Below, piece by piece: positions 37,829-47,129 of a stretch of DNA of 64,000 nucleotides; within the stretch, counting starts at the first letter, position 1; every line of letters begins with the position of its first letter. The notes under the pieces were generated by a model that was not told the DNA's origin, ran no database searches, and saw only the letters and a list, made by a program, of their open reading frames with translations. The stretch lies in assembly GCA_016787345.1 (NCBI GenBank), contig JAEUUU010000088.1, forward strand, positions 27,200 through 91,199, written 5' to 3'. Source of the DNA: Saprospiraceae bacterium (lineage in GTDB: Bacteria; Bacteroidota; Bacteroidia; Chitinophagales; Saprospiraceae). The translations under genes and the position numbers were made by a program.

Positions 37829-37914
37829 GGTTGATGAGGGTTGATGAGGGTTTATAAAGTTTATCACGATCGCGCAGATCAACCTTTATAAACCCTCATC
37901 AACCCTCATCAACC
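37829..37914. repeat. Inverted repeat of GGTTGATGAG units directly after mutL
   Basis: Starts 3 nt after the mutL stop. The left arm (37829-37859) contains two GGTTGATGAG units and then GGTTTATAAAG; the right arm (37884-37914) is its perfect 31-bp reverse complement, with a 24-nt spacer. The rhomboid gene starts 14 bp later. There is no T-tract. Confidence 0.93.
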
Positions 37915-37928
37915 CCAAACAACAAGCT

Positions 37929-42968: not shown

Positions 42969-43105
42969 GAAGGGTTGATAAAGGTGATGAGGGTTAATAG
43001 AAGGGTTGATGATGTTGATAAGGGTTGATGAGAAAAATCTTGGTTTGAGAGCGTCCATCCCCCTTTTATCAACCCTTATCAACCTTATTAACCCTTATCA
43101 ACCCC
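42969..43105. repeat. GGGTTGATAAGG repeat array after the PKD-cyclophilin gene
   Basis: Direct copies of AAGGGTTGATAA-like units at about 42969-43032 (in plus orientation) and inverted copies at about 43072-43105, an imperfect palindrome around a 40-bp centre. In the sense of the minus-strand cyclophilin gene, GGGGTTGATAAGGGTTAATA begins immediately after the stop codon. It also occupies the region upstream of the DUF4350 start. Confidence 0.9.
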
Positions 43106-44066: not shown

Positions 44067-45725
44067 TCATTTCCCTTTGATCCGGTTTAGTCCGGCTTTG
44101 GCCCGGGCATGCAAACTGTCGGCATAATCGGGCGGATTGAGGCTCAGGCATTGCTGGTAAGCGACCCTCGCTGCCCGATAGTCGCCGCGCGAGGCTTGCA
44201 GGTCGCCGAGTTGCAGGGCTGCGCTGCAGGCGTAGTGAGCGGTTTCGGTAGCGCCATTGGCGATGGTTTGATTGTACAGGATGATGGCCTCATTCGTTTT
44301 TCCCATTTTATGGGCGATGCGCCCCTGGCGGTAGGTATATTCCAGATGCCGCTTTTTGTCGCCGGCATACTCGGGCCCTGCATTTTTCAACAAATCATAG
44401 GCCCGGGCGTAATAACAGCCGTCGAAAAGCAAACGCGCCTGCAGCAGTCGGACATCCGGCAACTGATTTTCTTCCGCTTCGCGTTGTGCGGCCTTGTCGG
44501 GCTCGATACGGGTGGCGCCCCTGTTTTTGAGCTGGGCCATGTACGACGAATAACCGGCCGGGTTGCCCTGTACCAATTGGTGCCAGGCCAGTTTCTGATA
44601 AGTTTCCTTGATGCCGTTCTGACCTTTAAAATGGCGAAGGAATTGTTGAAGAGGCTGATCGGCATCCTTGTCCAGCCGGCTCAGTTTGGAAATACCCAAC
44701 TGATAATCGAGATAGTGAAACGGGTGGTAGGCGCCGCCTCTCGGGGCGTTTTGCAGGATGCGGATGGCTTCATCGTTGTGTCCGGTTCTGCGCCCTACGC
44801 TGGCTACCACAAATGCCGCCAACGGATTCTGACGGGTGTCGAGGCGTGATTGGTTGTTGAGCGTAGCCCATGCGGCCGTCTCGTTGTCGTTGAGGTACAA
44901 CTGCATAAACGCGTATGCGATGAGGGTTTCTTCGAGGAATAAAAAGTCGTTGGTTTTCGCGTATGCCAGTACGGCCTCTATTTCCTGCAAGCCCTGTTGC
45001 GCGCTGCCGCTCATACCGGTGAATGCCTTGAGTGCCCATTTGTATTCCTCCGGCGTATTGCTCAGGGCGGTATGCAGGATAGCCAGGCTTTTTTTGTTGG
45101 GCATAAAATCGGGGAAAAGCCGCTGGTTTTCCTGCAACAGGCCGTAGGCCAGGTTAATGTCGTTGAGACTGGACAACATATCGTTGTACTGCCCGCGCAG
45201 AATGGCCCACTGGAGGCGGATTTCACCCTGGCAATAAAGGCGCCAGGGTGAGCGGGGTTCGCCCTGGCCGATGCGTTCGAGGCGGGGCGCCATGTTTTTC
45301 GACAGGCGTTTGTAGGTGGCCTCGTCGTTGTCGACAAATACGGTGAGAAAATCCAGATAGTTCTCTACCAACAGGGGCAGCAAATTGTCGGGCTCATTGC
45401 GGCGAAGCTGGTCGAGGGCGCTGCGGGCTTCCGAAAAACGCAGGTTGATCACCTTGGTGTACGCGTCGCGGGTGGCTGGCGTCAGCTCGAAATAGCCGGC
45501 GCCGGTGCTGGTTGTCGGCGCCTGGTGAAAGGAAAGCGGCAGGAAAAGCAGTAAAAATGCTGGCGCGAGGCTTTTCGCTGGCGCGAGGCTTTGCCTCGTG
45601 TCGACTATTCGCCGGGCTTCGCCCGGTTTTGGGCCGGGCGAAGCCCGGAAGAAACGTAGGCACGAGGCAAAGCCTCGCGCCAGCGAAAAGCCTCGCGCCA
45701 GCAGGTGCAGGATATTATTTTTCAT
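44067..45725 (-). CDS. Secreted TPR-like repeat protein interrupted in its signal peptide by a palindromic element
   Basis: 552 residues from ATG 45725. Residues ~150-552 are all-helical with TPR-like units (EYTYRQGRIAHKMGKTNEA, QLGDLQASRGDYRAARVAY). No named family is recognised. The N-terminus starts as a signal peptide (MKNNILHL) but is interrupted at codon 8 by a 144-bp palindromic element adding 48 residues (ARGFSLARGFAS and so on); the hydrophobic core then resumes (FLLLFLPLSFHQ). Removing the element restores an uninterrupted signal peptide and keeps the frame. A longer frame to 45797 has no support. Export of the present protein may be altered. Confidence 0.85.
   Translation of the reverse strand: MKNNILHLLARGFSLARGFASCLRFFRASPGPKPGEARRIVDTRQSLAPAKSLAPAFLLLFLPLSFHQAPTTSTGAGYFELTPATRDAYTKVINLRFSEARSALDQLRRNEPDNLLPLLVENYLDFLTVFVDNDEATYKRLSKNMAPRLERIGQGEPRSPWRLYCQGEIRLQWAILRGQYNDMLSSLNDINLAYGLLQENQRLFPDFMPNKKSLAILHTALSNTPEEYKWALKAFTGMSGSAQQGLQEIEAVLAYAKTNDFLFLEETLIAYAFMQLYLNDNETAAWATLNNQSRLDTRQNPLAAFVVASVGRRTGHNDEAIRILQNAPRGGAYHPFHYLDYQLGISKLSRLDKDADQPLQQFLRHFKGQNGIKETYQKLAWHQLVQGNPAGYSSYMAQLKNRGATRIEPDKAAQREAEENQLPDVRLLQARLLFDGCYYARAYDLLKNAGPEYAGDKKRHLEYTYRQGRIAHKMGKTNEAIILYNQTIANGATETAHYACSAALQLGDLQASRGDYRAARVAYQQCLSLNPPDYADSLHARAKAGLNRIKGK
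45559..45702. repeat. 144-bp in-frame palindromic element, RPE-like
   Basis: Perfect 42-bp inverted arms (45559-45600 and 45661-45702). Each arm contains a 16-bp unit GCTGGCGCGAGGCTTT twice and ends in a small hairpin (CGAGGCTTTGCCTCG). A second perfect 15-bp inverted repeat, CCGGGCTTCGCCCGG, sits in the centre (45612-45626 and 45634-45648) around TTTTGGG. Length is exactly 48 codons with no stop in the reading frame of either strand, and the arms are in the same codon phase on both strands, so either orientation would encode ARGFSLARGFAS...SLAPAKSLAP. A self-complementary insertion tolerated in coding DNA. Confidence 0.95.
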
Positions 45726-45800
45726 CGGTTGTATTTGTAATAAAATGCAGAAGGACACCCGGCAACCAGGTGTCCTTCTTGTATAAACTGGAAACAATGA

Positions 45801-47129
45801 TCAATTTTCGATGGCCACCTGGTATTCTTTGGCCAGGAAGGCTTTTACCCAGTCGGTCGTCACCGATTTCGGCCGTTCGAGCGGCAGACCCAGCGAACGG
45901 GCCCAGCAGAGGGCGGCCAAAACGCCAAGGGCGCGGCTCACGCCGAACAGGACGGTGTAGTAGTTGTACTCTTTCATGCCGTAGTGCACCAACAAGGCGC
46001 CCGAGTGAGCATCCACATTGGGCCAGGGGTTTTTGACCTTGCCCAGGCTGGTGAGGATGGGCGGCACCACGTCGAAGATTTTCCAGACGATCTTGACCAG
46101 ATCGCTGTCCTGAATATTGTCTTCGGCAAACTGGCGTTGGGCCATGTAGCGCGGGTCGGGTTTGCGCAGTACGGCGTGGCCGTAGCCGGGGATGACGCGA
46201 CCGCTGGCCAGTGTGCTTTTGACGTATTCGCCAATTTGTTCGCGGGTCGGTTTGGTGGTGCCCAGGGTGTCCACCATTTTCTGAATCCAGCGGATGACTT
46301 CCTGATTGGCCAGGCCGTGCAAGGGACCTGCAAGAGCATTCATACCGGCGCTGAGGGCCAGATACGGGTCGCTGAGCATCGAGCCCACGAGGTGGGTGGT
46401 GTGCGCCGAGCCGTTGCCGCCTTCGTGGTCGGCATGGATGGTGAGGAAAAGGCGCATGTATTCTTTGAAACCTTCATCCTCGAAGCCCAGCATATGGGCG
46501 TAGTTGCCGGCCCAGTCGAGCGAAATATCAGGCAATACCTGATTACCGTTGTGGTACACCCGCCGGTAAATGTAGGCGGCGATACGCGGCAGGCGGGCGA
46601 TCAGGTTCATCGTGTCTTCGTAGGCGGCGTCCCAGTATTCGGTTTTATTCATACCGGTGTTGTAGCGCTGTGCGAATACACTGGTGTTCTGCATGGCCAT
46701 GATACCGACGGAGAACTGGGTCATCGGGTGCGTTTCAACGGGCAGGGAGTCGATGGCCTTGAAGGCATGTTCGGGTACGTTGGAGCGGCGCACCCAGTTT
46801 TCGGTGAGCCATTTAACTTGTTCGAACGTGGGAATTTCGCCCACGAGCATGAGCCAGAACAGCCCCTCGGGCAGCGGCTCCTGGCCGCCGGGAGCTTTGG
46901 GGAGTTTGTCGCGGAGTTCGGGGATAGAAAAACCGCGGAAACGGATGCCTTCTTCGGCATCGAGCAGCGAGGGTTCCCAGAGCATACAGGTGATGTCGCG
47001 CATACCGCCGAACACCTGGTCGAGCATTACATCGTCAACTTTTTTGTCGCCGTGTTCTTTGAGTAATTCTTTGACCTCTTTTGCCTGGGCCTGGGCTTTT
47101 TCGTAGAATAGTGATTTGAGCGGATCCAT
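45801..47129 (-). CDS. gltA: Citrate synthase, mitochondrial-like type
   Basis: 442 residues. It condenses oxaloacetate and acetyl-CoA to citrate in the TCA cycle. Catalytic residues by family alignment: His271 in GPLHGLANQE, His318 in GYGHAVLRKPDPRY and Asp373 in NPWPNVDAHSG. The sequence follows the eukaryotic mitochondrial enzyme closely: DAEEGIRFRGFSIPE, EPLPEGLFWL, TIHADHEGGNGSAHTTHLVG, SDPYLALSAGMNALAGPLHG, NYYTVLFGVSRALGVLA, LGLPLERPKS. This differs from the usual bacterial type I and II enzymes. The start matches the N-terminal helical extension. A well-formed promoter lies upstream. Confidence 0.95.
   Translation of the reverse strand: MDPLKSLFYEKAQAQAKEVKELLKEHGDKKVDDVMLDQVFGGMRDITCMLWEPSLLDAEEGIRFRGFSIPELRDKLPKAPGGQEPLPEGLFWLMLVGEIPTFEQVKWLTENWVRRSNVPEHAFKAIDSLPVETHPMTQFSVGIMAMQNTSVFAQRYNTGMNKTEYWDAAYEDTMNLIARLPRIAAYIYRRVYHNGNQVLPDISLDWAGNYAHMLGFEDEGFKEYMRLFLTIHADHEGGNGSAHTTHLVGSMLSDPYLALSAGMNALAGPLHGLANQEVIRWIQKMVDTLGTTKPTREQIGEYVKSTLASGRVIPGYGHAVLRKPDPRYMAQRQFAEDNIQDSDLVKIVWKIFDVVPPILTSLGKVKNPWPNVDAHSGALLVHYGMKEYNYYTVLFGVSRALGVLAALCWARSLGLPLERPKSVTTDWVKAFLAKEYQVAIEN

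Follow-up and report, generated by a model that had tools for sequence, protein, structure and literature searches.

A REPIN-type palindrome inserted in frame in the signal peptide of a Saprospiraceae TPR protein, and its probable RAYT transposase

Judging from sequence comparison, the 144-bp palindrome lying in codon 8 of a TPR protein gene of a Saprospiraceae bacterium is very probably a non-autonomous REPIN/BIME element, mobilised in trans by an HUH/Y1 RAYT transposase that is encoded on contig C113 of the host genome (G000). This classification follows from the position of the RAYT gene between copies of the element, and from the occurrence of RAYT homologues beside variants of the hairpin in the genus. 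What is novel is the setting, in that a REPIN-type element belonging to a Bacteroidota RAYT lies in frame within a signal peptide; in-frame intragenic REPs as such have already been published elsewhere. The palindrome is regarded as a tolerated selfish insertion, not as a functional signal-peptide module.

The palindrome was found in a window of 64,000 nucleotides. Its coordinates, with the 42/42 arms and the nested 15-bp repeat (arms complementary 15/15, 45612–45626 and 45634–45648), are as given in the preliminary description, and it contains two inverted REP hairpins with a spacer, the layout of a REPIN/BIME (Table 1). Exactly 48 codons long and free of stops, it is open in the frame of the TPR gene; as had also been described, the arms have the same codon phase on both strands, the matching frame on the opposite strand being open and giving identical arm peptides (LARGFSLARGFASC...TRQSLAPAKSLAP). 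In total, four of the six frames are open, which is not unusual, since dinucleotide shuffles have 2.5 open frames on average and at least four in 17% of cases; frame openness was thus rejected as evidence that coding is selected for. When 261 nt including the palindrome were folded as RNA, the energy was −167 kcal/mol, while 200 shuffles gave −78 ± 4.8 (z −18.7) and never reached that stability. A search of Rfam with permissive filters for a known RNA family gave a best match of 36 of 440 bits, far below the gathering scores, and such sub-threshold matches are taken as effects of the strong hairpin. A second inverted-repeat family (GGTTGATGAGGGTTGAT), unlike the element in sequence, is also present in the window at 37829–37923 and 43001–43102.

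Table 1. Features of the palindromic element, its host gene and the copies beside the RAYT gene (window positions unless a locus, L, or contig, C, is given)
Feature	Position	Strand	Remarks
Palindromic element	45559..45702	.	144 bp; probable REPIN/BIME-type; in frame in TPR gene
Left arm	45559..45600	.	42 nt; perfect complement of 45661–45702
Right arm	45661..45702	.	42 nt
REP unit	45577..45616	-	Model R1, 56.1 bits, unit among those that built R1; foot, hairpin GACACGAGGC-aaa-GCCTCGCGCC, AGC tail
REP unit	45645..45684	+	Model R1, 52.8 bits, unit among those that built R1; inverted relative to 45577..45616
Outer end	45559..45592	.	Two direct 16-nt copies, 18-nt spacing; mirror pair 45669–45702
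Inner hairpin	45612..45648	.	15-nt arms, 7-nt loop
Loop	45627..45633	.	7 nt; exact inversion in sister genome G025
Degenerate half copy upstream of RAYT	about L091:1785–1819, C113:65287–65318		Unscored by model R1
Full element copy by RAYT	L091:2543–2663
Host gene	44067..45725	-	552-aa TPR protein (Pfam) with N-terminal signal peptide
Signal-peptide hydrophobic core	45528..45557	-	FLLLFLPLSF, codons 57–66, directly 3' of the insert
Citrate synthase gene	45801..47129	-	Upstream neighbour of TPR gene
Hairpin between citrate synthase and TPR genes	45749..45779	.	Terminator-like; putative role

A 171-bp region used as query matched the host genome partially at many places, and 8 of 60 genomes searched as relatives, the host included, had matches. 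The consensus of the family is a hairpin, GGCAC-N5-NNN-N5'-GCGCC, followed by AGC; an ATA before the hairpin is loosely conserved (columns 9–11 in 19 of 26 units), and GT[AG]G stands at the hairpin foot in six of the 26. As this tag is mostly absent, as in TnpA-REP subclass 2.6, the family was filed as REPIN-type and not as a canonical GTAG REPIN. The covariance model R1 was built from an alignment of 26 units from 15 loci in seven genomes. They come from 31 units picked by a pattern fixing CAC and part of the outer stem and allowing up to one inner mismatch; two unrelated window matches, L049 (orthologue of L003), and L043:2352 and L112:1454, which are near repeats of units already used, were left out. 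This choice of pattern means that the A.C mismatch and the pairing were in part imposed on the alignment. The AGC tail is invariant in the 26 units though the pattern did not demand it, and a pattern-independent hairpin scan found the same hairpins at L104, L106, L107, L108 and L112. In the inner stem, 20 of 234 cells were changed on both sides, against a shuffle mean of 3.0 and 0–6 in slid controls. Weaker measures of covariation gave four doubly changed pairs, a number that 17 of 500 shuffles reached (mean 2.1), and nine extra pair types, a number reached in 21 of 500 (mean 6.5).

Matches to R1 at E ≤ 0.01 were detected in at least 19 of the 42 genus genomes, with at least 24 units in the host, 28 in G022, 27 in G024, 24 in G008, 21 in G025 and 20 in G005, and fewer in the others; all of these counts are lower bounds, obtained with stricter filters and 150 candidates scored per genome, and a further scan gave 27 and 29 where the main scan had given 24 and 27. 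The further copies for which a search had been proposed therefore exist, and 13 separate sites were read in the host genome alone. The core pattern occurs there at 27 places, at least one of them off-family, compared to three for a reversed control. A second type of copy (TGTCACGAGGC..GCCTCGCGCGAGC) was observed in the host at L010, L014, L016, L027, L034 and others, where it forms part of longer composite repeats that also include AAAAGGGTTGTT..CTGCTCTCG and TTGGGTTTTGGG-like stretches. In G024 and G025, many of the contigs retrieved stop at or close to REP units; short-read assembly thus seems to fail at these palindromes, which may conceal RAYT genes.

Four Y1_Tnp matches were found in the host genome. 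The RAYT on contig C113 (65568–65738) matches NCBIfam model NF047646 (REP_Tyr_transpos) with 93 bits, above the cut-off of 80, and is flanked on one side by a degenerate half copy of the element and on the other by a full one. A sequence search of solved structures gave only weak Y1 transposase matches (E about 0.001–0.002). In the alignment, the C113 RAYT carries NHIH and YIHENP, which we take to be the HUH motif and the site of the catalytic Tyr. These roles are in part described in PMC6006769. The three other Y1 matches, on contigs C137, C72 and C151 (L094, L095 and L096), each lie near a different repeat family, with GTAGCGCCGACCTCCAGGTCGGCG-like repeats surrounding the one on C151, which suggests several RAYT/REP-like systems in the host genome.

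Homologues of the C113 RAYT (E ≤ 1e-20) were detected in 16 of the 42 genus genomes. REP-unit matches (E ≤ 0.05) were found near 12 of the 21 RAYT loci, in 10 of the 16 genomes; seven of these 12 loci come from five genomes that took no part in building R1, and several of the nine loci without matches are contig fragments. At least two units were present in 11 of 16 RAYT-positive and 5 of 26 RAYT-negative genomes (Fisher p 0.0027, ignoring kinship, at a cut-off of two units picked after the counts were seen); with at least one unit, the numbers are 11 of 16 and 8 of 26 (p 0.026, again ignoring kinship). In the main scan, R1 units were not found in the RAYT-positive genomes G012, G020, G023, G030 and G062, although G012 has weak REP matches at its RAYT locus, while five RAYT-negative genomes have 5 to 21 units by lower-bound counts. 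In the G025 assembly, with at least 21 REP matches, no RAYT homologue was found, but contig C595 stops short of the RAYT locus, and the result is therefore not read as absence. These data tie a little-described group of Bacteroidota RAYTs to a REP family of its own, whose hairpins covary.

In REPIN/BIME systems with a RAYT (TnpA-REP), such as those of Pseudomonas and E. coli (PMC3116915, which defines the REPIN, and PMC6006769), dispersed elements likewise consist of two inverted REP hairpins with a spacer, copies lie beside the RAYT gene, and each RAYT has its own REP family. The element studied here differs in mostly lacking the GT[AG]G foot, in its extra direct 16-nt outer repeats, in having an inner hairpin within the doublet, and in its location inside a gene. 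A further close likeness is to the Bacteroidetes subclass 2.6 of TnpA-REP, which lacks GT[AG]G according to PMC6006769 and shares the NHIH, WQ and YIHxNP motifs, a similar size and a Bacteroidota host, with atypical hairpins beside the gene and copies elsewhere; this subclass was judged by motif only, and YIHENP of C113 stands against YIH[QN]NP in the published table. In-frame REPs inside genes are also in print. PMC3733652 places most REPs between genes and some within them (GTAG/CGTC REPs of O. terrae, Thauera and others, where a REP insertion is likewise read in frame), and PMC6006769 describes in-frame REPs inside the tnpA-REP genes of subclass 2.4; here other host genes are hit, in a signal peptide and in putatively cytosolic loops beside membrane segments. 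With these reports and subclass 2.6, the statement of the preliminary description that no equivalent is known in Bacteroidota is not supported. A literature search that covered few subscription papers found no paper on in-gene REPs in Saprospiraceae. Long perfect palindromes with arms kept alike are also found in translated genes of nematomorph mitochondria (PMC6649704), where the arms belong to the native protein, while here the palindrome is a mobile insert.

The element had been likened to the Rickettsia palindromic elements (RPEs), nearly half of which lie in ORFs according to PMC10969869. A Bacteroidota counterpart of the RPE, specialised for in-frame insertion in genes and for adding a peptide module, would explain the similar size (RPEs, also palindromes, measure about 150 bp and are read in frame in genes unrelated to each other), the in-frame, stop-free insertion, and three independent confirmed in-gene cases in the genus, each beside a hydrophobic segment. 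This reading is nonetheless unlikely. Among the matches listed, 45 element sites were read (13 in G000, 13 in G005 and 19 in G022), and only three of them were confirmed by orthologues to lie in genes, with at most a few more to be added; the reading phase of the element differs among the three, so that they do not preserve one common peptide, and the copies are accounted for by the RAYT system. Thus, the parallel stands for the in-frame palindromic insertion, as a likeness of description and not of RPE sequences, while membership of the RPE family is not supported, the element belonging to a RAYT/REP system.

Besides the TPR gene, the element interrupts, in frame, an FtsX/MacB-type permease gene with two FtsX stretches on host contig C48 and a gene for a 660-aa membrane protein on contig C18 of G022. 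The permease has a match in 34 of the 42 genomes, and the insert is absent from the other 29 of 30 fetched loci; G025 retains only the far end of this gene. For the membrane protein, two of the 30 loci had frames too short to be used; of the 27 other sequences aligned, 24 are without insert and three (G009, G063 and G032) have a different, PSPxGEGS-type insert. As a side observation, these repeat-like inserts (L246, L249 and L251) occupy the loop that holds the REPIN in G022, a possible insertion hotspot. All three inserts would lie on the cytosolic side beside a hydrophobic segment; the in-gene peptides are not all basic, the one in G022 having a net charge of about 0 by hand count. The other 42 sites were judged by the open-frame test alone: L191, L192, L203 and L207 lie in frames of more than 250 codons and are unconfirmed or doubtful as in-gene cases, and the rest have no long spanning frame or a frame that starts or ends near the element. 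Seemingly in-frame copies in G022:C20 (a REP remnant in a GH63-like gene), in G022:C10 (a transposase tail) and at L192, all judged by reading frame, were not counted, nor was L191, where the likely start falls after the element.

The host protein of the window palindrome has TPR_8, TPR_6, TPR_2 and TPR_1 domains above the Pfam cut-off. Its gene starts with an ATG at 45725 on the minus strand, and the insert enters after the second base of codon 8. In the first 90 residues, Kyte–Doolittle means over 11 residues exceed 1.6 only in stretches that start at residues 51–57, a peak which was equated with the hydrophobic core behind the insert. The TPR protein was sought in the 42 genus genomes, and 29 of them gave a match, with one locus apiece and one extra fragment. 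The 48 residues are absent from 27 of the 29 N-termini, the exceptions being the host and its sister genome G025, and the covariance model likewise placed a REP unit inside the gene only in these two (L061 and L062); a weak REP match of L067 (E 0.29) lies about 1.3 kb beyond the gene alignment. Read by eye, most insert-free orthologues have an ordinary short signal peptide, the starts of L067, L081, L085 and L087 being uncertain. This bears out the earlier claim that the insert splits a signal peptide, with the hydrophobic core directly behind it. No empty site in a closer relative was found among the genus genomes searched.

In-frame insertion is well supported, whereas translation through the insert is inferred. 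According to the proposed mechanism, the RAYT would excise the single-stranded element and insert it at codon 8, and the ribosome would then read straight through the 48 codons. The insert may have survived because its length is a multiple of three, because it is stop-free in frame, and because it is placed between the n-region and the core; the extra basic stretch (net +7) would leave a basic n-region followed by an intact core. Alternatively, the palindrome could be untranslated or regulatory, with the start elsewhere or with an mRNA hairpin at codon 8 that throttles expression. The hairpin is indeed very stable, and many N-terminal REPs are suspected to be non-coding in PMC3733652; yet the only in-frame ATG, GTG or TTG codons among the first 100 are codon 1 (ATG) and codon 92 (GTG). 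Translation thus has no canonical start available between the palindrome and the hydrophobic core, and one behind the element would forfeit the signal peptide of the orthologues, which makes this alternative improbable, although throttling by the hairpin may act on top of read-through. On the preferred reading of a tolerated REPIN-type insertion, REP palindromes can enter a secretion signal and membrane-protein loops while the frame survives, and mobile palindromes could in this way feed new peptide segments into proteins outside Rickettsia.

Over 7.5 kb, the window shares 96.3% identity with the sister genome G025, a MAG filed as JADZFP010000132.1 (Saprospiraceae bacterium isolate SJ871). G025 carries 104 of the 144 bp at the same base, and its contig then ends inside the element; the 40 bp nearest the gene start and the start itself are missing. 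The host and its relatives are MAGs or drafts, and both of these genomes are fragmented (191 contigs in G000 and about 640 in G025), but an artefact of assembly or binning is very improbable, as two assemblies have the element at the same base and the family is present on many other contigs.

Since the insert is common to G000 and G025, changes between them should postdate the insertion. Downstream of the insert, 65 bases are changed, with 54 synonymous and nine nonsynonymous codon differences, while 65 random substitutions would be expected to give about 50 nonsynonymous ones. With dN 0.0079 and dS 0.184 (NG86), dN/dS is near 0.04 since the split, and these sequence comparisons show the TPR gene to have been under purifying selection since the insertion. 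Outside the loop, 97 bases of the element can be compared, and none of them is substituted; the probability of this is 0.013 at the overall rate of the gene and about 5e-8 if a synonymous rate of 0.16 is assumed. The lack of change may reflect correction between the arms, constraint or chance. The 26-nt cores are 93.3% identical within elements (n = 19) and 90.3% between elements of one genome (160 comparisons), and the loop triplet is equal in 17 of 19 and 110 of 160 cases, respectively; this greater likeness within elements was set aside as a weak signal, one aligned row being misaligned.

The lead most worth following is an inversion of the element interior between G000 and G025. In the TPR gene, the loop TTTTGGG of the window corresponds to CCCAAAA in the incomplete G025 copy, an exact 7-nt inversion between the 15-nt inner arms which keeps the frame open and changes the peptide from SPGPKPGE to SPGFGPGE. 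An orthologous two-armed REPIN (G000:C68:4538–4689 and G025:C109:1064–1213; L093 and L098) stands in opposite orientation in the two genomes: the flanks are collinear (852 of 905 positions identical in the forward alignment), whereas the centre is unmatched forward and the element matches in reverse at 149 of 150 positions over 150 bp. Both cleanly comparable two-armed REPIN pairs of G000 and G025 thus have an inverted interior. It is conceivable, but tentative, that REPINs flip their interior in place, via cleavage and rejoining by the RAYT or via cruciform resolution, much as the hairpin ends of parvoviruses alternate between flip and flop. Assembly ambiguity may also lie behind the inversions: the perfect arms of the elements measure 36–47 nt, and arms of this length can mislead a short-read assembler with a small k, whereas 15-nt arms should not at the usual k. 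A report of REPIN inversion was not found in the literature search, and the sole "flip" in the accessible part of PMC8266576 concerns integron bases. A genuine inversion would serve as a natural read-out of RAYT or cruciform activity, and if flipping is true, the 7-nt loop of the TPR gene would be a tiny invertible coding switch. The remaining sites shared by G000 and G025 are rearranged, single units or contig ends, and those shared by G008 and G024 fall at contig ends of G024. At C62/C527, an array, all of the stronger matches run forward, and orientation is kept at the single-unit sites on C183 (twice) and C71.
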